Origin: Blastocatellia bacterium
Lineage (GTDB): Bacteria > Acidobacteriota > Blastocatellia > Chloracidobacteriales > Chloracidobacteriaceae
DNA length: 64,000 bases
NCBI GenBank assembly: GCA_019695185.1
Contig: JAIBAN010000041.1
Location: 1 to 64,000, forward strand
Direction of reading: 5' to 3'
Under the pieces are notes generated by a model, which was not told the DNA's origin, did no database searches, and worked only from the letters and a program-made list of their open reading frames with translations. The position numbers were made by a program, and so were the translations under genes. Of this stretch, positions 7,586 through 61,210 are shown one piece after another. Positions within the stretch are counted from its first letter, which is position 1. Each line of letters opens with the position of its first letter.

Positions 7586-7740
7586 TAAGAATTGAGAATT
7601 GAGAATTGAGAATTGAGGATTGAGAATGCACAATTCGATTGCCTAAATGTAACAATCTGAACGTTGTGTTGCCGTACGCGCTGTGAACCATTCAGCTCAA
7701 CTCAGAATTGTTCAATTCTCAATTCTCAATTCTCAATTCT
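7586..7740. repeat. Inverted pair of GAATTGA heptamer arrays
   Basis: The left array (7586-7627) has about six tandem copies of GAATTGA. The right array (7711-7740) has about four copies of the reverse complement. The 80-nt spacer is unrelated. The same motif pair recurs at 58731-58860. It fills the gap between two genes on the same strand. Confidence 0.9.
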
Positions 7741-7757
7741 AAAAAGGCGGCTCAACC

Positions 7758-8687
7758 ATGTTTTGTCCCAAATGCGGAACTTCACAGCCGGAAGGTGCGG
7801 CAACCTGTATTTTGTGTGGAGCAGTCATCCCCCCACCGGCACCCCGGACCAACCCATTGGATAAGCCGCAACGCACCAGGGAAACCCAGGAAGCCTCAAC
7901 CAAAATCATGCACCCGCCCGCCCAGCCACCGGCCCAAGGTGCCCCCTTGCCACCGTCGCAAATCCCGACAGTGATGGGTCCGCCACCGTCGCAAATCCCG
8001 ACGGTGATGGGTCCGCCACCGTCGCAGGTACCCACTGAAGAAATAACCCGGTTTATGAGTGGTGCGGCAGGCAACTCCCCAGGCGGACCGGTTGAAGCAA
8101 CCCGGTTATCCGGCAGTCAGCCAATCCAGCCGGAAGGGGAGAACCGTCCCTATAAATTTCCGGCCAATCCTTATGAAGCAGGCGGTCAGCCACCTCGGCC
8201 TCAGCCACCTCAGCCCCAATCACCATTTGGGACGCCTTACAATACCCAATTTCCTTCCCCTTTGACTCCGCCACCGCCAGCCAGTCCTTACGCCGCTCCC
8301 GGATTTCCCCCGCAACCCAATCCCATGCTGCCCCCAACGCCCAATCCAGCCAACCTGCCGGGACCATACAGTGGCGGCGGGTATCCGGGCATGCGACCGC
8401 CGGGAGGACCTCAATATGGCTATGGCCAGCCTGCCAGAACCGGTGTCAGTGGCCGGGCCTTGTCTGGTTTGATTCTGGGAATTGCCTCATTTGTCGCATG
8501 CTTTGGCCCCCTGTGCAGTATTCCCGGATTGATTTTATGTCGGACTGAAATCACGGCAGCCCGTCGGGGTGAATCCAATTCATCAAGTGAAACTTGTGCC
8601 AACGTTGGATTTTGGATCAATGTCCTTAATCTGGGACTGGCGGCACTGTGGATTCTGGCCGTAATTTTTGCTGGAATTTTTGGCTGA
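7758..8687 (+). CDS. Zinc-ribbon, proline-rich, DUF4190 membrane protein
   Basis: 309 residues. The N-terminus is a zinc ribbon with two CxxC knuckles (FCPKCGTSQPEGAATCILCG). A long Pro/Gln-rich segment follows, containing an 11-residue tandem repeat (PPSQIPTVMGP). The last 80 residues carry two hydrophobic segments around a conserved turn (LCSIPGLILCRTEITAARRG), the pattern of DUF4190. No enzyme motif is seen. It is the first of two tandem paralogues, the second at 8766-9233. The role is unknown; zinc-ribbon/DUF4190 proteins are generally small membrane proteins of unknown function. Confidence 0.85.
   Translation: MFCPKCGTSQPEGAATCILCGAVIPPPAPRTNPLDKPQRTRETQEASTKIMHPPAQPPAQGAPLPPSQIPTVMGPPPSQIPTVMGPPPSQVPTEEITRFMSGAAGNSPGGPVEATRLSGSQPIQPEGENRPYKFPANPYEAGGQPPRPQPPQPQSPFGTPYNTQFPSPLTPPPPASPYAAPGFPPQPNPMLPPTPNPANLPGPYSGGGYPGMRPPGGPQYGYGQPARTGVSGRALSGLILGIASFVACFGPLCSIPGLILCRTEITAARRGESNSSSETCANVGFWINVLNLGLAALWILAVIFAGIFG
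7949..8026 (+). repeat. 33-bp in-frame tandem repeat inside the zinc-ribbon gene
   Basis: A 33-bp unit is repeated about 2.4 times, with starts 33 bases apart (7951, 7984, 8017). Two copies differ by one base. It encodes the 11-residue unit PPSQIPTVMGP and so could vary in copy number without breaking the frame. Confidence 0.9.
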
Positions 8688-8765
8688 ACCTGGCTTAACG
8701 GGTTCACACCTGCTTAATCCGTTTTACCCGACCCGGTAGCAATCATGCTGCCATCCTCCAACCTT

Positions 8766-9233
8766 ATGACCATTTACTGCCCCAAGTGCGGAACAGCACA
8801 AGCTCCAGGTGGAACGTCCTGTGTCAAATGTGGAGCAATGATTCCACCCCAACAGCCCGCTCAATTTCCCGGCCCGGAAGTTGGCTATCAAACTTTTCCG
8901 CCTCCCTCACAACCCCAATTCCCCCCTTATCCGCCACCGGGTTTTGGCGCTTACCCAATGCCTCCGCAGGTTCGCCAGGGAGCTGGCGGCAAGGCTATCG
9001 CCTCGCTGGTTTTGGGGATTTGCTCGTTTGCTCTGGGGTTGGGGCCGGTACTGAGTATTCCAGGGGTGATTTTGGGAAAAATGGAGATGAACGCCATTCG
9101 CCGGGGCGAAGCCTCGCCTGACGGTGAAACAATTGCCAAAGTCGGGTTTTATGTCAGCCTGTTGAATATCATTTTGACCGGCATCCTCTTACTGGTCATT
9201 CTCACATTTTGTGCCGCCCTGATTAAAGGATAA
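8766..9233 (+). CDS. Zinc-ribbon DUF4190 membrane protein, short paralogue
   Basis: 155 residues from ATG 8766. An in-frame ATG at 8745 would add seven residues, and neither start has a clear ribosome-binding site. The later one is chosen because it places the zinc ribbon (MTIYCPKCGTAQAPGGTSC) at the same distance from the start as in the upstream paralogue. The order is zinc ribbon, a short Pro/Phe-rich linker, then the DUF4190 two-helix membrane region (LSIPGVILGKMEMNAIRRGE). The linker is much shorter than in the 309-residue neighbour. Function unknown. Confidence 0.8.
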   Translation: MTIYCPKCGTAQAPGGTSCVKCGAMIPPQQPAQFPGPEVGYQTFPPPSQPQFPPYPPPGFGAYPMPPQVRQGAGGKAIASLVLGICSFALGLGPVLSIPGVILGKMEMNAIRRGEASPDGETIAKVGFYVSLLNIILTGILLLVILTFCAALIKG

Positions 9234-9265
9234 CCTCCGCGCAGTTTCGTGGCGGGTTTTTTCCT

Positions 9266-9288
9266 GGCAGAAAGCCCTGCCGCTTTTT
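9266..9288 (+). terminator. Possible terminator after the short DUF4190 gene
   Basis: A 5-bp stem (GGCAG 9266-9270 with CTGCC 9277-9281) is followed by GCTTTTT. It is short but in the right place, 33 bases after the stop. Confidence 0.35.
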
Positions 9289-9340
9289 ACCGGTTTACCG
9301 GAAACATTGAATGTTCCTTTCCCATCCAAGGAGTCACCTC

Positions 9341-9823
9341 ATGAAACAAGCGTTTTGGCTGGCCTGTTGTCTGTTCGTTCTGACCGGTTTTTCCATCAGT
9401 AACCCTGCTTCTGTTTGTGCTGCTACGCGAATGGATCCATCCACAACCCTTCATGCCAGTCTCACTGATGATGATTGGCAGGACGAGGTAAAACCACTTT
9501 TTTTGCAGTTTACGGCAGCCATCAAGTCAGGGGTAGCCGAATTGGGCAAGGCGGAATCAGCCAAGGAAGCAGCGGCGGCCTTTCGTAAAATGACCAAAGA
9601 AGCCGGGCCTCCTGCTGCCAAACTGACTGAGATGGAAAAAGTACATCCTGAAATCAAAGACAAGGAAAAAATGAAAGGGATTGTGGGAGCCGACACCTAT
9701 GCCGAATTGGACAAGGCAATGGAAGCCCTTTTTGATGTAGGGGGAAAAGCTGAGGACAAGTTCAAGGATGATGCTGACTTTATGGCAGCATACAAGGAAT
9801 TTACCAAAATCCTGAGTAACTGA
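9341..9823 (+). CDS. Small secreted helical protein of unknown function
   Basis: 160 residues. ATG 9341 is chosen because AAGGAG (9328-9333) lies seven bases upstream and a signal peptide follows (MKQAFWLACCLFVLTGFSIS, cleaved near VCAA). The mature part is rich in Lys, Glu and Ala, has no Cys, and is likely to be an all-helical periplasmic domain, with acidic stretches such as DDDW and FKDDADF. I do not recognise a family. It stands alone between the DUF4190 pair and a repeat element, followed by a gene on the opposite strand. Confidence 0.8.
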   Translation: MKQAFWLACCLFVLTGFSISNPASVCAATRMDPSTTLHASLTDDDWQDEVKPLFLQFTAAIKSGVAELGKAESAKEAAAAFRKMTKEAGPPAAKLTEMEKVHPEIKDKEKMKGIVGADTYAELDKAMEALFDVGGKAEDKFKDDADFMAAYKEFTKILSN

Positions 9824-9846
9824 AAAATCCGGTTTGGGACAAATCT

Positions 9847-9957
9847 GGGAGGCTGGGGAGGCAAACCCCTGACAGGGTGACAGGGTGACAGGGTGACAGG
9901 GTGACAGGAATTTCTCGACTCCCCAGACTCCCAAAACTCCCAAGGCTTCCAAGACTG
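9847..9957. repeat. 8-nt tandem array (GACAGGGT) beside a CTCCCAA-type array
   Basis: The left part (9870-9908) is about five copies of GACAGGGT. The right part (9919-9957) is a degenerate array of ACTCCCAA-like units. A partial complement of the right part (GGGAGGCTGGGGAGG) lies at 9847-9862. It fills the gap between two convergent genes. Confidence 0.8.
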
Positions 9958-9961
9958 TCCG

Positions 9962-11377
9962 TTACAGCATATACCCCAAATCCGCCAACTGTTTCCGGAG
10001 CAGTTCGGTTTCAGATTCGGTCAGGTGGCGGTCATTGTCCCGCAGGCGCACGCCGGGGTCTATTTGAGCCAGTTCAGCAGTCAGAGCACGAACGACTTCC
10101 GGGTTTTGCTCGGCCACATTGCACATTTCCCCTGGGTCCTTCCGCAAATCGTATAATTCGACAAACGACTCACGGTGTAAAATGTCCTGCATGCCCGCCA
10201 GCCGGACTTCATCCTTGAGTGGCCATTGCATCTTGGTGCGGATTCGTTTTTCAAACAGGTCTATTTCCCGTTGGGTGCATTCATTGAAAATAAGTTTCCA
10301 GTCTCGCGTGCGAACGCCCCGCAAAAACGGTCGGTCGGCTTCATAGTCGTAGGTGAAGCAACAAAAGAAGGCTGGGAGTTCGGGCAGGCTTTCTCCATTC
10401 AAAAACGGCACCAACGAGCGACCGTCAGAAGGTTCCCGCCCGGTTTCGGAGACAGCCGGAACGCCAAGTAACCCAAGTATGGTGGGAACGATGTCAATCG
10501 TGCGGACCACATCCGAAACGGTTCGCCCTCCCTGGAGTGAGCGCGGGTGGTGGAAAATCAACGGGACCCGAATGACCTCTTCCAAACCACCATTGACGGC
10601 TCCGTGCATCGGCACCCGGCGGTTGAGTCCTTCGCCATGGTCGGCGGTCAGAACAATCAAGGTGTCGTCCAACTGTCCGGTTTGCTCCAGCACTTTCAAC
10701 AAGTTGGCAATCTGGGCATCCACCCGGTTGGCGTTTTCCACATAAGTGGTGCGCACCTGCTGCCAATCATTGGTCGCCCAGGCATCCGCCAGTTGCCGGT
10801 CAAAATCCTCCGGGGTCGTGCCATAAGGCCAATGGACGTTGAAGGTGTGAAAAAAGAGGTACCAGGGTCGTTTGGCACGGGCAAACTTCCGAATGGTTTC
10901 CTCTTGCAGTTCAGCGGCAAAAACCGATTGTTTGTATCCCCGGCGCAGCCCTGTGTGTTTGCTTTCGAACATGGCTCCTTCACCCAGGGCCCGCCCGGCA
11001 TTTTGCAGCGTCAGAAAGTGATGGCGGTCCAGAATTTCAGCTATGGGCCGGACCTGCTTGCTCATGGGTGATTCAAACTGGTGAAAAACCCGGTGTTTAG
11101 GCCAGTAGGTTCCGGTAAACATCGCCGCGTGCGAAGGCGTGGTCAGCGGACAGGCGGAAATGCAGTGCGAGAACCGCACCCCTTCGGCAGCCAGCCGGTC
11201 AATGGCCGGGGTCCGTACCAAGTCGGCTTGTTTTCCCAGAAAAGAACGGCGTTGTTCGGCACTGATGGCATCATGGCGCAGCGTATCCAGGCTGATTAAC
11301 ACGACATTGCGCGGAGCCTGGGCAGGCGCTTCAAAGGTTGGTTGGGTTTTGGTCAGACGACGCAGAATTTCAAACAT
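9962..11377 (-). CDS. Sulfatase-like hydrolase of the alkaline phosphatase superfamily
   Basis: 471 residues from ATG 11377. A longer frame from 11440 would read through a repeat array, so the internal start before MFEILRRL is preferred. The N-terminal metal motif is VVLISLDTLRHD. The nucleophile region reads TTPSHAAMFTG, and later metal ligands are in LTADHGEGL and MHGAVNGG. Classical sulfatases have Cys or Ser (converted to formylglycine) in C/S-x-P-x-R. Here the position is Thr and Arg is replaced by His, so a formylglycine sulfatase is unlikely. A Thr nucleophile is found in phosphodiesterases and phosphoethanolamine transferases of this superfamily. No signal peptide is seen, so it is probably cytoplasmic. 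The substrate is unknown. Confidence 0.85.
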   Translation of the reverse strand: MFEILRRLTKTQPTFEAPAQAPRNVVLISLDTLRHDAISAEQRRSFLGKQADLVRTPAIDRLAAEGVRFSHCISACPLTTPSHAAMFTGTYWPKHRVFHQFESPMSKQVRPIAEILDRHHFLTLQNAGRALGEGAMFESKHTGLRRGYKQSVFAAELQEETIRKFARAKRPWYLFFHTFNVHWPYGTTPEDFDRQLADAWATNDWQQVRTTYVENANRVDAQIANLLKVLEQTGQLDDTLIVLTADHGEGLNRRVPMHGAVNGGLEEVIRVPLIFHHPRSLQGGRTVSDVVRTIDIVPTILGLLGVPAVSETGREPSDGRSLVPFLNGESLPELPAFFCCFTYDYEADRPFLRGVRTRDWKLIFNECTQREIDLFEKRIRTKMQWPLKDEVRLAGMQDILHRESFVELYDLRKDPGEMCNVAEQNPEVVRALTAELAQIDPGVRLRDNDRHLTESETELLRKQLADLGYML

Positions 11378-11387
11378 ATCCAATGTG

Positions 11388-11536
11388 CAGAACTGAGGAC
11401 TGCGGACTGCGAATGGTGATTCAATTTTGACCCCCATCACTTGAAAGGGCCTGGTCTGATGGTAAACACCAAAAAATAAAAGCTCAGAACTCGACTGTCT
11501 GGTATTACTTTCACAGTCCTCAGTCCTCGGTTCTTG
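11388..11536. repeat. Inverted pair of GGACTGA-type heptamer arrays
   Basis: The left arm (11388-11413) holds degenerate units AACTGAGGACTGCGGACTGC. The right arm (11514-11536) is CAGTCCTCAGTCCTC. The 100-nt spacer is unrelated. It lies between two minus-strand genes. Confidence 0.75.
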
Positions 11537-11547
11537 TTATTCCCTTC

Positions 11548-12183
11548 TCAATCCCGAAATAAAGCCGGCGGTGTAATGAAATAGCGGGCGGAAAACCGCC
11601 CGGCCCGGAGTTCCTCCAGGAATTCGGCCTCGTTGGTGATAGGGCGTTCAAACGCAGTAACGCAACTTCCGACCTGAGCCAACGTAGCTGCTTCGCTTCC
11701 GCCAATGGTCTTGAGTCCTGCTCCGCAGGCAAAATCACAGGCTTGCTGATTATGAAGGCGTGAACATTGCCCATTCAAACCTTCAATCACAAAGATTCCG
11801 GGCAATGTGGCGATTTTATCACCCAGGCTACGCCGGTCGGGGTCAAACGGATGGGCCGGAATACAAACGGCCCCGTGCTCACCGGTATATTCCAACAACC
11901 GGAGCATCGGCAACCCTTTTTTTCCTTCCAAGCCAAGGGCTTCCTTTTCCGGAAGTCCAAAAATCAGGACGCCACCCCAATCGGTTTCAATTTCCAGCCC
12001 CCGAATTACGCATAAACCCGTTCCTTCGGCAAACTCACTGCACACAGCCGAAGCCGCATAATGATTGTGCTCGACCACCCCAATGCCACCCAGTCCCAAA
12101 TCAAGGGCCTGGTCAATCAATTCTTCGGGTGCAAGCAAGGAATTTCCGGAAAGGACGGTGGAGAGATGAAGGTCAAAAAGCAT
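11548..12183 (-). CDS. PHP-domain protein with incomplete metal-site motifs
   Basis: 211 residues. The frame follows the PHP phosphoesterase order: DLHLST at the N-terminus where DxHxH is usual, VVEHNHY where TDHN is usual, a conserved E in GLEIE, PAHPF, and GGSEA where GSDAH is usual. The second His of the first motif and the Asp/His of the last are missing, so the metal site is reduced or altered. PHP domains hydrolyse phosphoesters, and a shortened site may mean a different metal number or a non-catalytic role. The ATG directly abuts a repeat array, so no Shine-Dalgarno can be seen. Confidence 0.78.
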   Translation of the reverse strand: MLFDLHLSTVLSGNSLLAPEELIDQALDLGLGGIGVVEHNHYAASAVCSEFAEGTGLCVIRGLEIETDWGGVLIFGLPEKEALGLEGKKGLPMLRLLEYTGEHGAVCIPAHPFDPDRRSLGDKIATLPGIFVIEGLNGQCSRLHNQQACDFACGAGLKTIGGSEAATLAQVGSCVTAFERPITNEAEFLEELRAGRFSARYFITPPALFRD

Positions 12184-12320
12184 AGGGTTCAGGGTTCAGG
12201 GTTCAGGGTTCAGAGTCCAGGATTCAGGATTTTCGAATACCGAAAATTTGAAAGTCCGATACAGGTTTCAAAACTCAAAACTCAAAACTCAACGAAAAGA
12301 CCCTGAACCCTGAACCCTGG
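12184..12320. repeat. Inverted CAGGGTT arrays with an inner CAAAACT array
   Basis: The left arm (12184-12230) is about five units of CAGGGTT. The right arm (12297-12320) is about three units of AACCCTG. The spacer contains an inner heptamer array (CAAAACT, 12268-12292) and a TTTCGAATACCGAAAATTTG stretch. The spacer read on the other strand matches most of the spacer at 15797-15942. Confidence 0.9.
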
Positions 12321-12323
12321 TTG

Positions 12324-12749
12324 TTAAACCATTTCTTTCAAGAGTTTCCAATAATGGTGGTATTTCTCGACGCGGCGCAAATCGCGTTCGGTGAGATTTT
12401 TAATGCGACGAAAATCCATGTTGTCTTCAATATCGGCCAGTTTGACCCGCATGGCGATGTGATTGGAACGAATCCGCTCAATGAATTCGCTATAAGGCTC
12501 ATCCGGGCGATGGGAAAGACAATCCACCGCCGCCACCACTTCTTCGGAAAAACCTTCGGCCTGGAGTTGTTCCAAGGTCCAGGGAGTATCCTCAATCACG
12601 TCATGCAACACCGCGGCCATCATTTCGACCTCGGTGTTCATGCGGAGCATCATTCGAATCGGGTGCAACACGTAGGGAGCACCAGCTTTGTCTCGTTGCT
12701 CCTGGTGGGCGGTGGCAGCAATGGCAATGGCACGGGCAAGGTTGGACAC
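12324..12749 (-). CDS. HD-domain hydrolase, SpoT/MESH1-like
   Basis: 141 residues from a GTG start with AGAGG five bases upstream. The motifs are those of the (p)ppGpp hydrolase half of RelA/SpoT and of the single-domain MESH1 proteins: R-x-K-A-G-x-P-Y-V-L-H-P near residue 19, the HD pair plus ED in AVLHDVIEDT near residue 47, and VKLADIEDN near residue 103. There is no synthetase, TGS or ACT domain, so it is a small stand-alone hydrolase. Alarmone hydrolysis is plausible from family knowledge but other nucleotide substrates are possible. Repeat arrays flank it on both sides. Confidence 0.82.
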   Translation of the reverse strand: MSNLARAIAIAATAHQEQRDKAGAPYVLHPIRMMLRMNTEVEMMAAVLHDVIEDTPWTLEQLQAEGFSEEVVAAVDCLSHRPDEPYSEFIERIRSNHIAMRVKLADIEDNMDFRRIKNLTERDLRRVEKYHHYWKLLKEMV

Positions 12750-12763
12750 AAAGACCTCTTTTG

Positions 12764-12923
12764 TTCAGAGTTCCGCCTTCAGGCGGCGGTTTTGAGTTCC
12801 GCCTTCAGGCGGCAGTTTGGAAAACAAACTTCAGGTTGTTTTCTTAAAATCATCAGAAGGTAACAAGTCCAGCCGCGTAAACGCGGAACTCAGAACTGCC
12901 GCCTGAAGGCGGAACTCAAAACC
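12764..12923. repeat. Inverted copies of the CCGCCTGAAGGCGG palindrome unit
   Basis: Two left units read GAGTTCCGCCTTCAGGCGGC. The right side has CGCGTAAACGCGGAACTC and GCCGCCTGAAGGCGGAACTC in the complementary sense. Each unit contains its own palindrome, and the two sides also pair with each other. It ends at the stop codon of the next gene. Confidence 0.9.
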
Positions 12924-13688: not shown

Positions 13689-13693
13689 CTTTT

Positions 13694-13841
13694 TCAGGGT
13701 TCAGAGTTCAGAGTTCAGAGTTCGGGGTTCGGGGTTCGGGGTTTTCGAATATCAGCAGATTTGAAGCTCTGGATGGGGCTTTCATTGTCAATTGTCCATT
13801 GTCAATTATCCATTCAAAAGACCCTGAACCCTGAACCCTGG
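13694..13841. repeat. Inverted CAGGGTT-type arrays with an inner TGTCAAT array
   Basis: The left arm (13694-13742) drifts from CAGGGTT through CAGAGTT to CGGGGTT units. The right arm (13822-13841) is ACCCTGA-type. The spacer starts with TTTTCGAATATCAGCAGATT and holds a degenerate ATTGTCA/ATTGTCC heptamer array. Its two ends match the element at 12184-12320 while the inner array differs. Confidence 0.88.
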
Positions 13842-13843
13842 TT

Positions 13844-15685: not shown

Positions 15686-15796
15686 GCTTTCACCTCTGTT
15701 CTTTGTGGCTGTTGGCTGGGTGTGTACGTGCGATTGAATATAAGGAAGCCGCAGGAATGAATGCTGGTGGGTTTTAGCACGATGGGGCTTGGTGGG

Positions 15797-15942
15797 TCCA
15801 GGGTTCAGGGTTCAGGGTTCAGGGTTCAGGGTTCAGGGTCTTTCTGTTGAGTTTTGAGTTTTGAGTTTTGAAACCTGGATCAGACTTTCGAATTTTCGGG
15901 ATTCGAAAGCCCCGGACCCTGAACCCTGGACCCTGAACCCTG
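15797..15942. repeat. Inverted CAGGGTT arrays with an inner GAGTTTT array
   Basis: The left arm has six units of CAGGGTT (15799-15840). The right arm (15914-15942) has AACCCTG units with a one-base variant. The spacer has three GAGTTTT units, then AACCTGGATCAGACTTTCGA and a CGAATTTTCGGGATTCG palindrome. Read on the opposite strand it is the same element as 12184-12320 with scattered differences. Confidence 0.9.
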
Positions 15943-15945
15943 CTT

Positions 15946-17690: not shown

Positions 17691-17923
17691 AGAACCTTTC
17701 AATGTTGTTCAGGGGGCTGAAAAATTGAACCCACAGCTTGAGAAAGCAAAAGATTTGTCACAATGCGAAATGAATTATGACCTGCTCTCAGAAACGAAAA
17801 CAAGACAACCGGTTGCAAATCGGGGTTCGGCTTCAAACTTCCTGCCGCAAATGGTAAGCTGCGGCCCTTCAGCAATTCGCACTTTTTTGACTCCCAGCCG
17901 GATTTTTCGGAAAGACTCTTTCA

Positions 17924-19954: not shown

Positions 19955-20989
19955 ATGTCAGACCTTACCAATTTTGACCCCAATGCCGCAGCCGCAGCCG
20001 GTTCCGGTGTCTATGGGCTGCCCTTTTCACATGACAACAGCCGGGTGATTCTGGTTCCGGTGCCGTATGAGGCCACCACCTCGTATGGGGGCGGCACCTC
20101 GCGCGGCCCCGGAGCCATCCGCGAGGCCAGCCACCAAGTAGACCTCTATGATTTGGGAACCGGGAAACCCTACGAAGCCGGAATTTTCATGCTCGACGAG
20201 TCGGAGGAAATCTGGCAACACAACGAGGAAGCCAAACATCTGGCGACGGTTGTCATTCACGAAAGCGACAGCGTTGACGCCCCTACCCTTGCCCACTATC
20301 TGGCGCAGGTCAACGAGCACAGCGCCGCCGTCAATCAGTGGGTGTATCAGACAACCGCCCGGATTCTGGCGGAAAACCGGATTGCCGGTATCGTTGGCGG
20401 AGACCATTCCGTTCCTTTTGGAGCCATCCAGGCATATGCGGAAAAATATCCGGGGCTGGGAATTCTGCATATTGATGCCCACGCCGATTTGCGTGACAGC
20501 TACGAAGGGTTCACCTGGTCGCACGCCTCGATTATGCACAATGTGATGACCCGGATTCCGGCAGTCGGAAAACTGGTCCAGGTGGGCATCCGTGACTTTT
20601 GCGAAGCCGAAAAAGACATGATTGACCAGTCAAACGGGCGAATTGTGACTTTTTTCGACGAACAACTGGCCGCCCGCAAGTTCGAAGGCACGTCCTGGGG
20701 CAAGCTCGTCGCGGAAATGGTCGCCGCCCTGCCCCAACAGGTCTATCTGTCCTTCGACATTGACGGATTGGACCCCACGCTCTGCCCCAATACGGGAACT
20801 CCGGTTCCCGGCGGGCTTTCTTTTCAGGAAGCGGTGGCTTTGATTGCTGCGGTTGCCCATTCGGGCCGCACAATTGTCGGGTTTGACCTGAATGAAGTCG
20901 CCCCCGGCGCGGATGACGAATGGGATGCCAATGTGGGGGCGCGAATGCTGTATAAAATGATTGGCTACACGCTGCTCTCGCAAGGCTAA
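19955..20989 (+). CDS. speB: Agmatinase/arginase family ureohydrolase
   Basis: 344 residues. All manganese-binding motifs of the ureohydrolase fold are present: GGDHS near residue 149, DAHADLRDSYEG near residue 175, and SFDIDGLDP near residue 269. VPVPYEATTSYGGGTSRGP near the N-terminus and the PVPGGLS segment fit agmatinases better than arginases. Agmatinase splits agmatine into putrescine and urea, leading to polyamines; formiminoglutamase or guanidinobutyrase activity cannot be excluded. The gene symbol is therefore tentative. No polyamine genes are adjacent. The 345-base gap downstream is filled by palindromic repeats. Confidence 0.88.
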   Translation: MSDLTNFDPNAAAAAGSGVYGLPFSHDNSRVILVPVPYEATTSYGGGTSRGPGAIREASHQVDLYDLGTGKPYEAGIFMLDESEEIWQHNEEAKHLATVVIHESDSVDAPTLAHYLAQVNEHSAAVNQWVYQTTARILAENRIAGIVGGDHSVPFGAIQAYAEKYPGLGILHIDAHADLRDSYEGFTWSHASIMHNVMTRIPAVGKLVQVGIRDFCEAEKDMIDQSNGRIVTFFDEQLAARKFEGTSWGKLVAEMVAALPQQVYLSFDIDGLDPTLCPNTGTPVPGGLSFQEAVALIAAVAHSGRTIVGFDLNEVAPGADDEWDANVGARMLYKMIGYTLLSQG

Positions 20990-20990
20990 A

Positions 20991-21329
20991 GTTCAGAGTT
21001 CCACCTTCAGGCGGCAGTTCAGAGTTCCGCGTTTACGCGGCGGTTTTGAGTTCCGCCTTCAGGCGGCTGTTGGAGTTCCGTCTTCAGGCGGCTGTCCTTG
21101 ATTTTTCTTAAAAGGAGTGTTCCCGTTTATTCACGGCCAAAAGCAGCAAAACTGTTTCCGAATGGCCCCCTGACACGTTATAAAGAAAGACTTGAAAGGG
21201 TTCCGCCTGAAGGCGGAACTCAAACTGCCGCCTGAAGGCGGAACTCAAACTGCCGCCTAAAGGCGGAACTCAAACTGCCGCCTAAAGGCGGAACTCTGAA
21301 CTGCCGCCTGAAGGCGGAACTCATAACTC
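20991..21329. repeat. Large cluster of CCGCCTGAAGGCGG palindrome units in inverted halves
   Basis: Bases 20991-21090 hold four units in the sense GAGTTCCGCCTTCAGGCGGC (one variant is CGCGTTTACGCGG). Bases 21200-21329 hold five units in the opposite sense, GCCGCCTGAAGGCGGAACTC, with some CTAAAG variants where both sides of the palindrome do not match fully. The middle 100 bases are unrelated. It stops just before the next start codon. Confidence 0.92.
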
Positions 21330-21334
21330 TAAAG

Positions 21335-35602: not shown

Positions 35603-35715
35603 GGATTGAGGACACAATCCAGGACTGAGGACTGAGGACTGGTTCTTCAAAAGAAATAAGGTTTCGTCAAACGATAACCGTAGAATTCTTTCCTCAGTCC
35701 TCAGTCCTCAGTCCT
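35603..35715. repeat. Inverted pair of GGACTGA heptamer arrays
   Basis: The left arm (35631-35651) is three units of GGACTGA, preceded by GATTGAGGACACAATCC. The right arm (35691-35715) is three to four units of TCAGTCC. The right array runs into the convergent gene and supplies its stop codon (TGA at 35708-35710 on the minus strand). Confidence 0.92.
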
Positions 35716-36676
35716 CAGTCCTTTTTGCATATAAATCCGGTTCCCCCTCAGGCCGGGTTTTCCAGCGGCGATGAATCCACAGCCAATGATCTGGATGCCG
35801 CCGAATCATATTCTCAATCGCCTTCATAAACTGGGCCGTATTGACTTCGATATCCTGCTTTGGATCTCCTGTTTCAATCAGTTCCAGGGCCGGTTCGAAA
35901 TGCAACCGGTACTTTCCCAGCCTTTCATCCCAAATTAAAAAACCCGGCAGGACAGCCGCCTTGGTTCGCAGCGCCAGCGTTGCCAGCATCGGAGTTGAAC
36001 AAGCCGGGATGCCAAAAAAATCACAAAAAACCCCCTGATTGCGGACCATATTCAAATCCGCCAGAATGCCAACCGTTTCCCCTTTGCGAAGGGCCGTCAG
36101 AATGGCTCTGGTTGAACCCATTTTATCCAGGGTGCGGTTGCCCGAAGCCGTGCGATAGCGGTCCACCAACTGTTCCACCAATGGATTGTCAATCCGCCGG
36201 ACCACAATGCTCATCGGGTAGCCAAACAAAGCGTGGGCAAAGGCACTCAGCTCCCAAACCCCAAAATGGCCGGTGAGAAACAAAACCCCGTTCCCCTGCT
36301 CCCGCGCCTTTTGGTAATGTTCCAACCCGTCATATTCCACCAATCTTCCAATATTCCGGGAATTGAGTTTGGGCAATTGGCTGAACTCGCCCAGCAGTCG
36401 GCCTAAATTGGAACAGGCTTTGGCAGCAATGCGCTTTCGCTCAGGTTGATTTTTTTCCGGAAAAGCCAATTCCAAATTGCGATAGGCCACCCGGCGTAAC
36501 CGGGGGATGAAAGCGAATGCCAGCTTGGCAAACAGCCAGCCACAGTCCAGAGCCATCCGGCGGGGAAACCAGCCCAGCACCTTCAACAGGCTCCAAACCA
36601 CGCCATATTGCAGGTGAATCAAAAGACTGTGAGCTTTTGGCGGTGTGTTGTGAGCTTCAGCGGAGCTTTCTGACAT
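35708..36676 (-). CDS. LpxL/HtrB-family lysophospholipid acyltransferase
   Basis: 322 residues, the usual length. A single N-terminal membrane anchor region is followed by the acyltransferase core: the HX4E motif in FLTGHFGVWELSAFA near residue 137, GILADLNMVRNQGVF near residue 203, and the C-terminal WLWIHRRWKTRP. This family adds secondary acyl chains to lipid A or related glycolipids at the inner membrane. No other lipid A genes are near. The last residues KRTED and the stop are encoded by a GGACTGA repeat array, so the natural C-terminus seems to have been set or altered by that element. Confidence 0.9.
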   Translation of the reverse strand: MSESSAEAHNTPPKAHSLLIHLQYGVVWSLLKVLGWFPRRMALDCGWLFAKLAFAFIPRLRRVAYRNLELAFPEKNQPERKRIAAKACSNLGRLLGEFSQLPKLNSRNIGRLVEYDGLEHYQKAREQGNGVLFLTGHFGVWELSAFAHALFGYPMSIVVRRIDNPLVEQLVDRYRTASGNRTLDKMGSTRAILTALRKGETVGILADLNMVRNQGVFCDFFGIPACSTPMLATLALRTKAAVLPGFLIWDERLGKYRLHFEPALELIETGDPKQDIEVNTAQFMKAIENMIRRHPDHWLWIHRRWKTRPEGEPDLYAKRTED

Positions 36677-38898: not shown

Positions 38899-39047
38899 AC
38901 TGCCAAACCATTTGCCATTTGCGATTTGCCAATTGAAACAGAGCGACCTCTGGCCAGGGCACTTTTCCGGGTTGGTTCGTTTCGACGAAACACAACCAGT
39001 CACAAACAGTTTTTCAAATGGCAAATGGCAAATCGCAAATGGCAGTT
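38899..39047. repeat. Inverted AAATGGC/AAATCGC heptamer arrays
   Basis: The left arm (38899-38930) reads AACTGCCAAACCATTTGCC and on through ATTTGCGATTTGCC. The right arm (39015-39047) has CAAATGGCAAATGGCAAATC and GCAAATGGCAGTT, largely its reverse complement. The spacer is about 85 bases. It fills the divergent gap before the GGDEF gene. Confidence 0.85.
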
Positions 39048-42186: not shown

Positions 42187-42295
42187 AGGACTGAGAACGG
42201 AAAAACAGAACTGAGGACTGAGGGCTGAGGAAAAGCCATTCTTTTCTGACATTACTCGCTGAAGGTTTTTTTCTCAGTCCTCAGTCCTCAGTCCT
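42187..42295. repeat. Inverted pair of GGACTGA heptamer arrays
   Basis: The left arm (about 42187-42230) has GGACTGA units interrupted by GAACGGAAAAACAGAACT. The right arm (42273-42295) is three units of TCAGTCC. It lies between convergent genes, and the right array abuts the stop codon of the glycine dehydrogenase gene. Confidence 0.9.
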
Positions 42296-43808: not shown

Positions 43809-43823
43809 GAAGACCTCAATGTA

Positions 43824-43911
43824 GGGGTTCAGAGTTTGAGAGTTCAGGGTTCAGGGTCTTTGCGAGGCCTGGGAGACTTGGGAGGCTTGAGCGGCTTGGA
43901 AGCCTTGAGCG
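43824..43911. repeat. Single-armed CAGGGTT and CTTGGGAGG-type array
   Basis: Degenerate CAGAGTT/CAGGGTT units (43825-43857) run into 9-nt type units (TTGGGAGGCTTGAGCGGCTT). No matching reverse-complement array was found near it, so it looks like half of an element or a fusion of two types. Confidence 0.7.
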
Positions 43912-45948: not shown

Positions 45949-45988
45949 AAAAAGAGCATGACGCTGCCAGATCGCCATGCTCTTTTTA
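45949..45988 (-). terminator. Terminator with a 12-bp perfect stem
   Basis: AAAAAGAGCATG (45949-45960) pairs exactly with CATGCTCTTTTT (45976-45987), with a 15-nt loop. The A/T runs at both ends make it usable on both strands. It most likely ends the minus-strand propeller gene at 46129-50274. Confidence 0.8.
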
Positions 45989-45998
45989 AGTTCTGAAG

Positions 45999-46113
45999 CT
46001 TGAGTTTTGAGTTTTGAGTTGAGGAATGGTTTTTTGAAGTACCGTCAGCAGTTGGGTATAAACCTTAACAGCAGCGGCATTTAACCTGCAAAACTCAAAA
46101 CCCGAACCTCAAT
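45999..46113. repeat. Inverted GAGTTTT heptamer arrays
   Basis: The left arm (45999-46022) has three GAGTTTT units. The right arm (46088-46113) has CAAAACTCAAAAC followed by CCGAACCTCAATC. It lies between the terminator at 45949 and the next gene's stop. The same heptamer is the inner array of the elements at 12184 and 15797. Confidence 0.85.
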
Positions 46114-46128
46114 CATCACATCCAGGGA

Positions 46129-50274: not shown

Positions 50275-50778
50275 GGGTGTACTCCTTTGAGACTGTAGGG
50301 TCGAAAGCAATTCCAGGTTAGAAATCTGGATTGCGGAACCTCTGTTTGAGAGCTCCGCTTTCGAACAAAAACTGTTTCCGGTTGAAGAAAGCAGGTCAAA
50401 GAGCAGTGTGTTCGGTTTATCCCAGCCGAAACAATAGCCTTGAAAAACCAAACCGAGGCAAGAAAATCAAAGAAAAACCTGGGATGAGTGCGTGAAAGGT
50501 ACTTCCCTTTCGGGATTGAAGTTGATACCCGGTATATCCGAACAAGGTTGGAAAGGAAAGGCAACCCTGTCACGGATCCAAATCAAGAATGAGGATGACT
50601 GCCGCTGGTTCGGTTATCCAGTCGCTCATCAATTGAAAAAGCGACTTTGTTGAAATGATTGCAATTGAGTTGAAGGTTTGCGCTCTGAAACAGCCCTGTC
50701 ATCTTGGCATAAATACTGTCTTTTGGCAAAGGTACAGGAAAGAATTGTAAAGTCACGTTAAGCACCAGGGACCGGAAA
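50275..50778. other. Gap between two propeller genes
   Basis: 504 bases with no supported gene. It must hold the promoter for the giant propeller gene on the minus strand, but no clear -35/-10 pair is seen. Confidence 0.35.
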
Positions 50779-50893
50779 CCGAGGGCTGAGGGCTGAAACA
50801 GGAACAAGCGCCTCCTGCCCGCTTTTTCCCAAACAAAATCAAAGGAAAAGCCTGGCTGTCAGCGCTTGGTCCCCAGTCCTCAGTCTTTGGTCA
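50779..50893. repeat. Inverted GGGCTGA/GGACTGA heptamer arrays
   Basis: The left arm (50779-50795) is CCGAGGGCTGAGGGCTGA. The right arm (50872-50893) is CCCCAGTCCTCAGTC-type. It ends five bases before the stop codon of the NHL protein gene. Confidence 0.75.
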
Positions 50894-50897
50894 GGGG

Positions 50898-52934: not shown

Positions 52935-53190
52935 AAACGTTAAACCTCGCTTAAACCTCTCCGAACTGAATCGGGCTGATTGTGTGGTAAATCAAAACAA
53001 ATGAAGATTTTGCAAGCCAAAATCATCACAACCCAGACTGAACATGCAGGATCGAAAGTGAACCAGTGGGATGGTTCCAGGGATGGCTTATGCTTGAAAA
53101 TTTGAAGAGGGGAACTGGATTTCTACTGAATCAGGATTGTATCCCGCCTGGAATATTTGTCAATTAAATGGATAAACCCGGCAAATCAAA
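52935..53190. other. Gap upstream of the NHL protein gene
   Basis: 256 bases without gene or array; probably the promoter of the minus-strand NHL gene. No convincing promoter pair seen. Confidence 0.3.
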
Positions 53191-53355
53191 GTCTTGAGGG
53201 TCTTAGGAGTCTTGGGAGTCTTGGGAGTCTTGGGAGTCTTGGGAGTCTTGGGAGTCTTGGGAGTCTTGGGAGTCTTGGGAGTTTGAAGCAATAAACAATG
53301 ACAAGTACTTATAGTGACAGGATTTTTTCTTGTCACTTGTCACCTGTCACCTGTT
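53191..53355. repeat. 9-nt CTTGGGAGT array plus inverted GTGACAG units
   Basis: Bases 53192-53281 are about ten tandem copies of CTTGGGAGT (the first two degenerate), the longest uninterrupted array in the window. It is followed by TGACAAG and GTGACAG (53299-53321) and the complementary CTTGTCACTTGTCACCTGTC (53329-53353). Confidence 0.93.
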
Positions 53356-53375
53356 TTTGACTCCCCAAACTATCC

Positions 53376-55871: not shown

Positions 55872-55949
55872 TGCCTCGTGCCCTCCTGCCATCCTTCCTG
55901 ATGAAGGAGTGGTGGCCTGGGGCACTGAGGACTCGGAGGCCGCAAAATC

Positions 55950-57764
<1,815 letters not shown>

Positions 57765-57767
<3 letters not shown>

Positions 57768-57779
57768 AGGAAAACTCCT
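57765..57779 (-). promoter_or_regulatory. Ribosome-binding site and ATT start of hflX
   Basis: On the minus strand AGGAG (57775-57779) is followed by seven bases and then ATT (57765-57767). The next upstream in-frame codons include a TGA, so the frame cannot extend further. Confidence 0.7.
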
Positions 57780-57780
57780 C

Positions 57781-58116
57781 GAATTTCAAGCATCCACAAG
57801 CTGAAGTCTACGCCCCTACGACAACCAGCGGCTGTTTTGCGCATGGCTGAAGGAAGCCTCCGATTTATTTGAGGCTCGACGGGAATCAATATGTTTTAAG
57901 CGGGCCGCAGCAAACAGTTGTGTTTGGAAATCCAGGCTCACTGGAATAATTGTGAGCGAGCGCGAGAATAAAATCGCCTGGCAAACGAGAAATAACCGGT
58001 TTCGATCATACTCCCGGTTTGCCAATCGAGCAAGCCTCGACCGAAATCTAATGGCGGGAATCAATTTTCCGGATTGCGAACCACCCAAAAGCGAATGTAT
58101 AAACGGGTTTCCTTTC
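57781..58116. other. Divergent gap between hflX and the ACT-domain gene
   Basis: About 335 bases before the repeat element, with no gene. It should contain the hflX promoter on the minus strand and possibly the ACT gene promoter. No clear promoter pair is identified. Confidence 0.35.
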
Positions 58117-58250
58117 CAGGGTTCAGGGTTCAGGGTTTTTCACAACTTGCGATTTCCGGGCTTCCTTCGTACTACGTTTGTCCAAAATCTTTAGAAGCAC
58201 AGCCAAATCCCTTGAACCCTGAACCCTGAACCCTGAACCCTGAACCCTGG
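58117..58250. repeat. Inverted CAGGGTT heptamer arrays
   Basis: The left arm (58117-58138) has three CAGGGTT units. The right arm (58210-58250) has five to six AACCCTG units. The spacer differs from those at 12184 and 15797. Confidence 0.9.
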
Positions 58251-58270
58251 TTTCCAAAAGGTGCTGTCAC

Positions 58271-58729
58271 ATGAACGACGAAGAAATCATTTATCAAATT
58301 ACCCGTGCGGTTTATCGCAAACTGGGACAGTTTGCCGACCGTTCCCTGGTTGAAGACCTTGTGACTGACATTTTCCGTTCCATTCAGCCTGCGCTGGGAG
58401 ATATCAGTCCGCCGTCAATCCCGACAACGGACCTGACTGCCACACCGGGTTCCAGCAGCAACCGGGCTGTGATTTCCATTTTTGGGCAGGACGGTCCCGG
58501 GATTATGGCCGCCGTCACGCACGTACTGGCTGAAGCCCGCTGCAGTATTGTGGATATTAACCAAACGGTGTTGCGCGGGAAGTTTGCCATGCTGCTCGTG
58601 GCGGATTTGTCGAACCTCAACGGCACGCTGGCGGACCTGCAACTGCGGCTCAAAACCGAAGCGTCACACCTGGGCGTGCGGGCATTTGTTCAGCGCGAGG
58701 ACCTGTTTCACTCAATGCACCGTGTTTAA
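58271..58729 (+). CDS. ACT-domain regulatory protein
   Basis: 152 residues. The C-terminal 85 residues are an ACT domain (RAVISIFGQDGPGIMAAVTH, ...SIVDINQTVLRGKFAMLLVAD), close to the UPF0237 type. The N-terminal 65 residues are a charged helical extension (MNDEEIIYQITRAVYRKLGQ) not found in the shortest UPF0237 proteins. ACT domains bind small ligands such as amino acids. It precedes the UPF0210 gene on the same strand, the pairing seen in many bacteria for these two families, so the two products probably work together. AAAGGTG lies upstream of the ATG. Confidence 0.88.
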   Translation: MNDEEIIYQITRAVYRKLGQFADRSLVEDLVTDIFRSIQPALGDISPPSIPTTDLTATPGSSSNRAVISIFGQDGPGIMAAVTHVLAEARCSIVDINQTVLRGKFAMLLVADLSNLNGTLADLQLRLKTEASHLGVRAFVQREDLFHSMHRV

Positions 58730-58730
58730 T

Positions 58731-58860
58731 TGAGAATTGAGAATTGAGAATTGAGAATTGAAAGAAGGTTCCTGGCTGTATCAGTCGTCCAGCTTTCTGA
58801 AACCTCCTGGCAGTTTTCTCAATTCTCAATTCTCAATTCTCAATTCTCAATTCTCAATTC
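58731..58860. repeat. Inverted GAATTGA heptamer arrays between the ACT and UPF0210 genes
   Basis: The left arm (58731-58761) has four GAATTGA units. The right arm (58816-58860) has six TCAATTC units. The spacer is 54 bases. It ends five bases before the UPF0210 start. Same type as 7586-7740. Confidence 0.93.
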
Positions 58861-58865
58861 TTTCT

Positions 58866-60227
58866 ATGGACTATTCAATTTACGAAATCCTCCAAACCAT
58901 CCGTATGACCGAGATGGAAAATCTCGACATCCGGACGGTCACCATGGGAGTTTCCCTGACGGATTGTGCTGACCGTGACATCAACCGGGTTTGCGACAAC
59001 GTACAGAAAAAACTGCTCGGCTACGCAGCCAAACTGGTGCCCACAGTCAACGAAATCAGCGCTGAATACGGGATTCCAGTGGCCAACAAGCGGCTCTCCG
59101 TCACCCCCTTGGCTCAGGTCGGTGCCGCCTGCGAAAACCGGGACTATGTGAAACTGGCACGGGCTGTGGATGCAGTGGCCCAGGAAATCGGCGTGGATTT
59201 CGTCGGTGGCTTTTCGGCTTTGGTTCACAAAGGCACAACCAAAGCCGAAGATGCCTATTTTGAAGCCCTGCCGGAAGCTCTGGCTGTCACCAACCGCTTA
59301 TGCGGGTCGGTTTCGGTGGCCACCACCCGGGTTGGCATCAATATGGATGCGATTAAACGGCTGGGGCATACCTTGCGCGAAATGGCAGCCAAAACCGCGC
59401 ACAAGCAAGGGTTGGGCTGTGCCAAGTTTGTCATTTTTGCCAATCCGGTTGAAGACAATCCCTTCATGGCCGGAGCGTTTTTTGGTGCCGGTGAACCCGA
59501 AGTCACCGTCAACGTCGGGGTCAGTGGTCCGGGTGTGGTGGCTCACGCCGTCAAACAGGCAGGCGATTGTGACCTGGGCGAACTTGCCGAAGTCATCAAA
59601 CGGATGGCGTTCAAAATCACCCGTGCTGGCGAACTGATTGGCCGCGAAGCCGCCAAACGGCTGAATGCCCCTTTTGGCATTATTGATTTAAGTCTGGCTC
59701 CGACTCCGCTCGTGGGTGATAGCGTGGGTGAAATCCTGCAATACATGGGGCTGGAATTCCCTGGTGCTCACGGCTCAACCGCCGCCCTGGCACTCCTCAC
59801 CGATGCCGTCAAAAAAGGTGGGGTGATGGCTTCAAGCTACGTCGGAGGGTTGAGCGGGGCCTTCATCCCGGTTTCCGAAGACCATGTCATGATTACCGCC
59901 GCCCACAATGGCGCGCTGACTTTTGACAAGCTCGAAGCCATGACCTCGGTCTGTTCAGTCGGGCTGGATATGGTGGTTATTCCGGGCGATACTCCGCCGG
60001 AAACCATCTCTGGCATTATCGCCGACGAAGTGGCCATCGGGGTCATGAATTCCAAAACCACGGCAATTCGCATTATTCCGGCACCCGGCAAAAAAGTGGG
60101 TGAAATGGTGGAATTCGGCGGTTTGCTCGGTCGGGCCCCGGTAATGGCGGTCAATACCTTCAAATGTGCTGATTTCATTCGTCGCGGAGGCCGGATTCCG
60201 GCACCGATTCAAGGACTGCGCAACTAA
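58866..60227 (+). CDS. UPF0210 / PFL-like family protein
   Basis: 453 residues from ATG 58866; the longer frame from 58758 would translate the repeat array and is rejected. The protein matches UPF0210 along its length: MDYSIYEILQTIRMTEMENL, DIRTVTMGVSLTDC, GVDFVGGFSALVHKG, FANPVEDNPFMAGAFFGAGE, FGIIDLSLAPTPLVGDSVGE and GGRIPAPIQGLRN. Structurally the family resembles pyruvate formate-lyase-type barrels, but no glycyl radical loop is recognised and the reaction is unknown. It follows the ACT-domain gene. There is no Shine-Dalgarno: the TCAATTC array ends five bases before the start. Confidence 0.9.
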   Translation: MDYSIYEILQTIRMTEMENLDIRTVTMGVSLTDCADRDINRVCDNVQKKLLGYAAKLVPTVNEISAEYGIPVANKRLSVTPLAQVGAACENRDYVKLARAVDAVAQEIGVDFVGGFSALVHKGTTKAEDAYFEALPEALAVTNRLCGSVSVATTRVGINMDAIKRLGHTLREMAAKTAHKQGLGCAKFVIFANPVEDNPFMAGAFFGAGEPEVTVNVGVSGPGVVAHAVKQAGDCDLGELAEVIKRMAFKITRAGELIGREAAKRLNAPFGIIDLSLAPTPLVGDSVGEILQYMGLEFPGAHGSTAALALLTDAVKKGGVMASSYVGGLSGAFIPVSEDHVMITAAHNGALTFDKLEAMTSVCSVGLDMVVIPGDTPPETISGIIADEVAIGVMNSKTTAIRIIPAPGKKVGEMVEFGGLLGRAPVMAVNTFKCADFIRRGGRIPAPIQGLRN

Positions 60228-60233
60228 CTATTC

Positions 60234-60385
60234 TGAGTTCCGCCTTCAGGTGACCAAAAGAAAGGCAGAGGTCAAAAATAGAAGGTTGTAGGTGGTTTTT
60301 CCGCCTTTTTCCTTTTTCCTTTTTCTTGAAAGCAGCCGCCTGAAGGCGGAACTCCAAACCGCCGCCTGAAGGCGGAACTCCAAAC
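60234..60385. repeat. Inverted CCGCCTGAAGGCGG palindrome units
   Basis: One left unit (GAGTTCCGCCTTCAGGTGAC, 60235-60254) and two right units in the opposite sense (60336-60385). It lies between UPF0210 and the response regulator and stops six bases before the next start. Confidence 0.9.
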
Positions 60386-60390
60386 CCCAG

Positions 60391-61023
60391 ATGTCATTTG
60401 AAACACCCACCATCCGCATTCTGATTGCTGATGACCACGAAGTGGTTCGGGCCGGTGTCTCGGCGATTTTACAACGCCAGTCCGATATGAAGGTGGTTGA
60501 TGAGGCTGAAAACGGACGGCAGGCGGTTGAAAAATTCCGCCTCCACAAACCGGATGTGGCCATTTTTGATCTGAATATGCCTGTCATGAGCGGCATCGAA
60601 GCAACCGCCGCCATCATGGCCGAATTTCCCAACAGCCGGATTATTGTGCTCACAGTGGCAGCCGGAGACGAAAACATCTTCCAGGCGCTTCATGCCGGGG
60701 CCCGGTCCTATTTACTCAAAGACACACTCGGAAAAGACCTGGTGGGAACGGTGCGGGCTGTCTACACGGGGGAAATCCGTATCCCGTCGGAAGTTGCCAT
60801 GCAACTCTCCCAGCGGGCGACTGTCACCGACTTGACCCCACGCGAACTGGATGTGCTCCGCCTGATTGCCAAAGGCCATAGCAACAAGGAAATCGCCACC
60901 ATCCTGGATTTGACCGAAGGCACCGTGAAAGGCTACGTGAGCGTGATGCTCAGTAAGTTGCAGGTCAACGACCGCACTCAAGCAGTGACCAAAGCCTTTC
61001 AACGCGGACTGATTCAACTCTAA
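60391..61023 (+). CDS. NarL/LuxR-family response regulator
   Basis: 210 residues. The receiver domain (about 6-120) has the acidic pocket IADDHE, the phosphorylated Asp in VAIFDLNMP near residue 57, and the conserved Lys in YLLKDT near residue 110. The C-terminal LuxR-type helix-turn-helix is LTPRELDVLRLIAKGHSNKEI...TEGTVKGYVSVMLSKLQV. No sensor kinase gene is adjacent; the large kinase at 22193 lacks a neighbouring regulator, but a link is only a guess. The start follows a palindromic repeat element by six bases without a visible Shine-Dalgarno. Confidence 0.93.
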   Translation: MSFETPTIRILIADDHEVVRAGVSAILQRQSDMKVVDEAENGRQAVEKFRLHKPDVAIFDLNMPVMSGIEATAAIMAEFPNSRIIVLTVAAGDENIFQALHAGARSYLLKDTLGKDLVGTVRAVYTGEIRIPSEVAMQLSQRATVTDLTPRELDVLRLIAKGHSNKEIATILDLTEGTVKGYVSVMLSKLQVNDRTQAVTKAFQRGLIQL

Positions 61024-61033
61024 ATCAACCGTT

Positions 61034-61210
61034 CAAGAAGTCTTGGGAGTCTGGGGAGTCTGGGGAGTCTGGGGGGTCCAAGAAAGCCAGAAGTCAGAAG
61101 TCAGAAGTCAAGAATGAAGGAAATGTTTTTTGAGTCTCAAGACTCCCAAGACTCCCCAGACTCCCAAGACTCCCAAGACTCCCCAGACTCCCAGGACTCC
61201 CAAGACTTCC
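61034..61210. repeat. Inverted CTTGGGAGT/CTGGGGAGT arrays with an inner AGTCAGA array
   Basis: The left arm (61036-61075) has 9-nt units TCTTGGGAG, TCTGGGGAG. The centre (61086-61111) has three AGTCAGA heptamers. The right arm (61137-61208) has about eight units of ACTCCCAAG/ACTCCCCAG. The right arm ends just before the hemD start. Confidence 0.92.

Follow-up and report, generated by a model that had tools for sequence, protein, structure and literature searches.

Inverted pairs of heptamer arrays in a Blastocatellia genome look like the ends of miniature mobile hairpins

The large genome of a Blastocatellia bacterium (assembly GCA_019695185.1, here G000) contains short tandem arrays of 7-9-nt units that lie between genes in inverted pairs, one array on either side of a core. 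We studied these elements in a 64,000-nt stretch of contig JAIBAN010000041.1 (the window) and in 400 kb from elsewhere in G000 by tandem-repeat (Tandem Repeats Finder, TRF) and inverted-repeat scans. They look like a very active miniature mobile DNA similar to REPINs, the hairpin-forming doublets of repetitive extragenic palindromic (REP) sequences. The paired arrays are probably the two ends of inserted, non-autonomous mobile hairpins of the REPIN type or of the type of miniature inverted-repeat transposable elements (MITEs), with fast turnover. This reading draws on the pairing itself, its polarity, the phases at which arms end, an arm-core-arm layout where a relative has a short gap, copied cores at unlinked loci in one class, and units that differ between and within genera. 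For comparison we used G003 (another genus of the same family), G021 (another family) and G002 (a small-genome member of the family of G000).

A first-pass annotation of the window had placed such arrays at 20 positions, and the repeat scans found one at every position. The annotation had also seen a reverse-complement partner for the left array in most cases; sorted by reading, 13 of the 20 have a clear partner, four a degraded one (9847, 45984-46112, 53190 and 60235) and three none (43825-43907, 50781-50796 and 57240-57276). The use of various units in one layout, the intergenic position and the single array inside hflX, which is truly intragenic and in frame, were likewise borne out. The comparison with shuffled sequence that it proposed gave 48 TRF arrays in the window against 4 in one dinucleotide shuffle; in the 400 kb elsewhere the figures are 331 and 31. 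Pairing far exceeds what independent arrays would produce. For 20 of the window's 35 arrays of period 7 or 9, an inverted partner lies no more than 300 bp away (200 permutations, mean 2.8, maximum 10), and in the 400 kb an inverted partner of the same unit within 300 bp accompanies 136 of 249 arrays (permuted mean 17, maximum 30), while partners in direct orientation fall below expectation (4 vs 17). A survey of five units over 784 kb in five G000 contigs, of which those other than the window contig were chosen for length among contigs with matches, yielded 110 pairs (GGGTTCA 27, GAATTGA 32, GGACTGA 28, GTTTTGA 10, AGTCTTGGG 13); by extrapolation the 8.33-Mb genome would hold roughly 1,200 pairs of these five units.

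The polarity of the pairs is absolute: in all 110 the named strand reads inward, and none is opposite. One polarity per unit was also found in the TRF-based pairs (78 in G000, 43 in G003 and 17 in G021), many units being seen once. Solitary arrays outside open reading frames (ORFs) mostly follow the same rule, with 42 inward and 11 outward in 464 kb; 13 more lie within ORFs. Arms tend to start and stop at class-specific bases; AGGACTGAGGACTGAGGACTGAGGACTGAG, for example, recurs at many loci with differing flanks. Lengths recur too: of 56 GGACTGA arms 24 measure 30 nt to the base, and of 26 AGTCTTGGG arms 9 measure precisely 40 nt. The cores in G000 are mostly 40-130 nt long (quartiles 52-78 nt); their folding is not unusual (z-score medians -0.23 to -0.34), the inverted repetition does not extend past the arms at the core ends, and some elements hold an inner array of another unit, usually unpaired. 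Three arm pairs that enclose longer stretches are candidates for an autonomous partner with matching ends, and ORFs were listed for two of them.

With respect to genes, 75 of 76 classified G000 pairs lie in gaps and one in an ORF. Of the arm ends on the stop side, 60 of 80 fall between -10 and +15 nt from the stop codon (median 2.5 nt), as do 51% of 43 in G003 and 56% of 18 in G021, and the first in-frame start codon follows a median of 11 nt past the arm (70 G000 cases). Most arms are flush with codons, as might be expected of cis-acting functional parts, such as terminators, insulators, translation couplers or quadruplexes, kept by selection; that arms vary far less than cores fits such a role as well. 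Nevertheless, the orientation of flanking genes is near background (++/--/+-/-+ 24/30/13/8 vs 108/107/51/51), and Shine-Dalgarno-like motifs are about equally frequent beside arrays (18/52) and away from them (65/163). Three of the five classes (AATTGAG, ACTGAGG and TTTTGAG) lack the GGG runs present in GGGTTCA and AGTCTTGGG and so are unable to form a canonical quadruplex. Array pairs are missing from the samples of family members such as G002, and orthologous gaps, described below, are often occupied in two genera by different units. We regard a cis-acting function as a very unlikely origin of the pairs.

A probable insertion can be viewed at the gap between gcvH and gcvPA, which, like its neighbours, was read by eye. 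In G003 it consists of TAA, 11 bp and ATG; in G000 the TAA is followed immediately by an AATTGAG arm, an 84-bp core, the right arm, 11 bp and ATG. We compared this gap in 30 genomes, those with loci among the 56 that have a gcvPA match. Seven (G000, G001, G022, G034, G037, G047 and G050) carry a paired heptamer array, with differing units; six have a gap of 1-7 bp, and 17, including G003, an array-free gap of 11-224 bp. The ancestral gap here was probably, though not certainly, short. In each of two gaps close by, G003 and G000 have a promoter-like or Shine-Dalgarno-like motif in common, and it falls outside the G000 element. The idea that arms arose around an ancestral spacer is weakened by the 11-bp gap in G003, the 1-7-bp gaps in six relatives and the outside position of the shared motif; it may still apply in places, given the 17 array-free gaps of 11-224 bp, and convergent gaps speak for it, with medians of 58 bp without arrays (n=24) and 124.5 bp with them (n=26). 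As a separate observation, just after gcvPA in G003 (locus L226, about C97:24735-25070) the upstream gene seems shorter than its G000 counterpart, with an ATTATGA array pair behind it, an arrangement that looks, by eye, as if the element had cut off the 3' end of the gene.

Gene pairs that are adjacent and orthologous in G000 and G003 number 17 in our comparison; eight have arrays in both genomes, three in G000 only, none in G003 only and six in neither. Thus 8 of the 11 gaps with a G000 array also hold one in G003, as a cis-acting role would have it, yet the units differ in 8/8 doubly occupied gaps; at one of the G000-only gaps G003 may, by eye, have a short array as well (L046:8527-8589). 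Turnover is also seen within genus g16, where the gcv gaps of G037 and G050 have a common right arm (one mismatch and one 8-nt gap) around cores that align poorly, the flanking genes being 84-85% identical, and where G022, the nearest to G050 in gcvH (90%), bears another unit. Taken together, the comparisons between genera and within g16 indicate that arms and occupancy persist or recur and that units and cores turn over. The first-pass annotation had taken the layout to imply either selection or a process generating arrays as matched pairs. The second half is upheld by pairs that share unit, polarity and end phases and by the arm-core-arm structure opposite an 11-bp gap in a relative; the first finds little backing in a flanking orientation like background and units that differ between genera.

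Two classes often share cores, as copied elements would. The element at 15794 revealed a dispersed family: the 40 places scored out of 559 first-look candidates, one of them the query, each match 90 or more of its 149 bases, which makes 40 a lower bound. Of the pairs of GGGTTCA cores, 75/351 score at least 30 (shuffled 0), and 17/78 AGTCTTGGG core pairs do so. At L076 two inverted copies stand 1.4 kb apart, their likeness ending at the element edges, and the similarity between the window core 7632-7709 and a relative on contig C69, both with AATTGAG arms, likewise stops at the element ends.

A rival account is growth in place, in which slippage builds an array and template switching at a hairpin (quasipalindrome copying) makes the second arm around an existing spacer. 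It would suit the locus-specific cores of three classes, the convergent gaps that are longer by about two arms where arrays are present, and the gcv gap of G037 and G050 with its common arm and hardly common core. Heterogeneous arms also mirror each other's unit order above shuffles in G000 (combined p 1e-5, 26 pairs), G003 (6e-5, 11) and G021 (4e-4, 8), with p 0.59 elsewhere (3 pairs); composite and REP-like arms drive part of the overall signal. Unit variants are common to both arms above chance for GAATTGA (p 0.0005) and weakly for AGTCTTGGG (0.03), and arm-to-arm profile similarity is not above chance in the other three classes. Left and right arm lengths correlate in G021 (r 0.74, 17 pairs), as growth in place would predict, but not in G000 (r 0.12, 78 pairs; -0.56 to 0.44 inside classes of 7 to 24 elements each) or G003 (r -0.04, 43). 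The recurrence of unit, polarity, end phases and exact length at unlinked loci is hard to obtain in this way, as is the copying of cores among GGGTTCA elements, and growth in place is unlikely as the source of the pairs.

Several observations weigh against simple insertion of mobile copies. GAATTGA cores are nearly unrelated (4/496 pairs scoring at least 30, including a single locus that was counted twice), as are those of GGACTGA (1/378) and GTTTTGA (0/45). The cleanest arms belong to two of these unrelated-core classes, GAATTGA (0.9% mismatches) and GGACTGA (1.9%); in the classes that share cores the figures are 4.7% and 5.7%. If elements were simply copied and then aged, the opposite would be expected, although the 7.2% of GTTTTGA agrees with ageing. 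Nor is there a clear target-site duplication: direct repeats of at least 5 nt flank 7.3% of 109 elements vs 4.3% of shuffled pairs, and of at least 6 nt 2.8% vs 1.5%, array edges being fuzzy. Lack of such duplication is usual for single-strand transposition of the Y1 type. At the gcvH-gcvPA gap, seven Chloracidobacterium-like genomes of the same family have array-free spacers of 61-90 bp, so that G003 could have lost a spacer, and one orthologous gap outside the 17-pair table (window 12184 and L046:7640) carries GGGTTCA in both genera. Finally, a matching enzyme does not stand out. Heptamer arms flank none of five Y1 loci inspected by eye, of 11 in the genome, these having other palindromes alongside or nothing evidently repeated, and Y1_Tnp occurs in 47/58 genomes searched irrespective of arrays, in counts that do not track array density.

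The transposase data bear also on the reading of the elements as REPINs proper, mobilised by the genome's REP-associated tyrosine (RAYT, Y1) transposases. The eleven Y1_Tnp matches, the inverted doublets at 50-80-nt spacing and a spacer less conserved than the ends speak for it. The arms, however, are tandem heptamers rather than REP palindromes, and Y1_Tnp is common as well where the sampled sequence of a genome has no array pairs; together with the absence of heptamer arms at the inspected Y1 loci, this makes REPINs proper quite improbable. At L080:5541-6660 (G000:C11) a Y1/RAYT-like gene stands between its own inverted palindrome clusters of the TTTTGCTGCTTCGCAGCTTCC type; this is a REP-like system of the classical kind, distinct from the heptamers.

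The contrast between arms and cores deserves closer description. In the unique-core classes the rare core relatives are 71-80% identical, sometimes partial, and sit within near-identical arms. A search of 64 cores against the 784 kb and the fetched loci gave, beyond arrays and a few related elements, a single 51-nt match of 90% among the matches listed (L085 core to L078:1776-1826, both strands); of two cores run against the whole genome, that at 7632-7709 has a single relative elsewhere, 71% identical, and the other none beyond 16-17-nt matches. We had considered a MITE with a conserved core in every class and dropped it, the cores of three classes being unrelated. Mismatches are more frequent in solitary GAATTGA arrays than in paired ones (8.0% vs 0.9%, p < 0.0005), a difference that is not significant in the other four classes. 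Clean arms around diverged cores imply that, compared with cores, arms are shielded, overwritten or made anew, or else that each event brings a new core. The same contrast could come from a birth-death population of copies, yet most elements should then have a close sister. Alternatively, a trans-acting activity might add class-specific arms, about four units long and in a set phase, to the two inward 3' ends around an arbitrary 40-130-nt core, or overwrite arms in place, the arms being the heritable unit; one example would be the addition of repeats from a template at a break, with an outcome like that of telomerase. Such arm addition would account for the absolute polarity, the fixed end phases and the independent arm lengths of G000, and also for clean arms on unrelated cores and unit sets that differ from genome to genome. 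Copied GGGTTCA cores count against it as the sole route, and we consider it quite unlikely.

We return to the insertion of mobile hairpins, which remains our preferred reading. An element would comprise a left arm of about four tandem 7-9-mers with fixed first and last bases, a core and an inverted right arm, and would spread by means of a trans-acting enzyme, presumably through a single-stranded hairpin intermediate. Elements would land throughout the genome, selection would remove insertions in genes, and the survivors would be those between a stop codon and the next start; retention in these few bases would explain why arms touch codons. Copies may be lost and replaced fast, which would leave different unit families at the same gaps in relatives, and slippage with hairpin copying may adjust arrays after insertion.

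The elements are patchily distributed. TRF arrays per 100 kb number 75 in the window, 83 in the 400 kb elsewhere in G000, 80 and 96 in two G003 sets, 38 in G021 and 30 in G002, where no TRF row has period 7 and four have period 14 or 21. Inverted partners accompany 31/109 and 48/130 arrays in the G003 sets (nulls 7.6 and 9.0), 34/61 in G021 (null 5.2) and 0/19 in G002. Periodic inverted pairs per 100 kb reach 16.3 in G000, 16.1 in G029 (6 kb only), 8.5 in G021, 5.9 in G003, 5.0 in G014 and 2.5 in G022 and G037, and the samples of the other 26 genomes (200 kb of G002, at most 40 kb of each other one) have none. TRF is blind to degenerate arrays, so that TRF-based counts in such samples are too low. 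The first-pass annotation had held that absence from other genomes of the clade would defeat the idea of a paired element; the outcome is mixed, G003, G021 and G029 being rich, G014, G022 and G037 sparse, and G002 and most samples empty. GGGTTCA matches at E <= 1e-8 were found in 5/58 genomes, G000 included. Convergent GGGTTCA pairs with a common core motif GACGCGCAAGCGG are also present in IMG/VR (L289:3475-3568, L290:4477-4569 and L291:1276-1383, on two contigs), between apparent stop and start codons of GC-rich contigs, from another lineage or a virus. A nested hairpin occurs in G003 (L047:8150-8440), with GGGCTTG-type arms around a AAGGGGAC/GTCTCCTT pair; its conserved core, which contains AAAAATATTCTCCCGCTCCC, is repeated at two further sampled G003 loci.

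Within the window, AATTGAG arms bound the elements at 7583-7743 (left arm 7583-7635, right arm 7712-7743) and 58728-58861; in the latter the left arm overlaps the TAA of the upstream ORF (58727-58729) and the right arm stops 4 nt before the ATG at 58866. GGGTTCA arms occur at 12184-12319 (TCAAAAC inner array), 13693-13840 (ATTGTCA-type inner array) and 15794-15942 (TTGAGTT inner array), the first two with the shared core, and at 58117-58249 around a different core. The element at 11392-11528 has ACTGAGG (GGACTGA) arms of 2-3 units each; GGACTGA arms recur at 35621-35722 and at 42210-42295, whose orthologous gap in G003 holds other units. CCATTTG / CAAATGG arms lie at 38908-39044 and degraded TTTTGAG arms at 45984-46112. 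The 9-mers are represented at 9847-9956 by degraded arms of the GGAGTCTTG type with a single inner TGACAGGG array (9870-9908), at 53190-53375 by a AGTCTTGGG array of ten units with a TGTCACC inner array and a degraded right arm, and at 61039-61211 by AGTCTTGGG-type arms around an AAGTCAG inner array. Unpaired are a GGGTTCA array followed by a degenerate 9-mer array (43825-43907), a short GAGGGCT array (50781-50796) and the lone in-frame hflX array (57240-57276, minus strand), which encodes a SPQPSALSPQSS linker in a variable region where the G003 ortholog has a different sequence. The palindromic-unit arrays listed in the first-pass annotation exist, but form a separate REP-like class with a unit of about 26 nt, found at 12763-12923 (26-nt unit, each inverted arm being two copies), 20987-21331 (inverted 25-26-nt units, four on the left and five on the right) and 60235-60386 (26-nt unit, one degraded copy on the left and two on the right). 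An Rfam scan matched only a tRNA. A 33-nt coding tandem repeat of 2.4 copies at 7949-8026, in a gene for a zinc-ribbon protein, is unrelated to the intergenic arrays.

Heptanucleotide arrays dispersed between genes are familiar from the short tandemly repeated repetitive (STRR) sequences of cyanobacteria; to our knowledge, inverted pairing and fixed polarity are not a feature of these. With MITEs the elements have terminal inverted repeats in common. Internal sequence is shared among many GGGTTCA and AGTCTTGGG elements and almost absent among GAATTGA, GGACTGA and GTTTTGA, and no clear target-site duplication was found. The first-pass annotation knew of no description of paired inverted heptamer arrays in Acidobacteriota. 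The novelty is narrower than first thought, because convergent heptamer pairs were reported in Xanthomonas in 2015; for Acidobacteriota, none of the open-licence PubMed Central (PMC) matches listed, by title and abstract start, places heptamer arrays in this phylum or joins them with mobile hairpins. In the Xanthomonas report, GGGAATC arrays form 70 and 75 convergent pairs, most commonly of four units, follow the same strand rule near ORF ends, are read as G-quadruplex repeats and, according to the authors, have in general no association with mobile elements (Rehm et al. 2015, PMC4692102). Convergent pairs of about four units near ORF ends are found here too. Xanthomonas is reported to have one G-rich unit per organism, whereas G000 has many units, 3/5 main ones not quadruplex-capable, along with copied cores, fixed arm ends and a short gap in a relative. 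REPINs are described as two inverted ends spaced 71 or 110 bp apart by a less conserved spacer (Bertels and Rainey 2011, PMC3116915). Inverted ends, a less conserved spacer, extragenic dispersal and a hairpin recur in our elements, but REPINs have REP palindromes at their ends, linked to a RAYT gene, and here the ends are tandem 7-9-mers with no linked RAYT seen at five loci. The heptamer elements thus lack REP-palindrome ends, a defining REPIN feature, and only the 26-nt class is palindromic. The TAACTGA repeats of Beggiatoaceae resemble them in being intergenic heptamer arrays near start codons, patchy across distant lineages; they repeat in direct orientation, however, in 169 sets with only one that is indirect, and are not paired hairpins as here (PMC4679880).

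Bacterial heptamer arrays have so far been listed as slipped simple repeats, and we suggest that many of those described here are the ends of inserted hairpins that fill the space between genes. The finding ties together the literatures on simple repeats, REPINs and MITEs, and the mismatch of clean arms and unrelated cores poses a sharp puzzle about how the ends are maintained. The genome of this Blastocatellia bacterium is suited to the study of insertion, turnover and end recognition.

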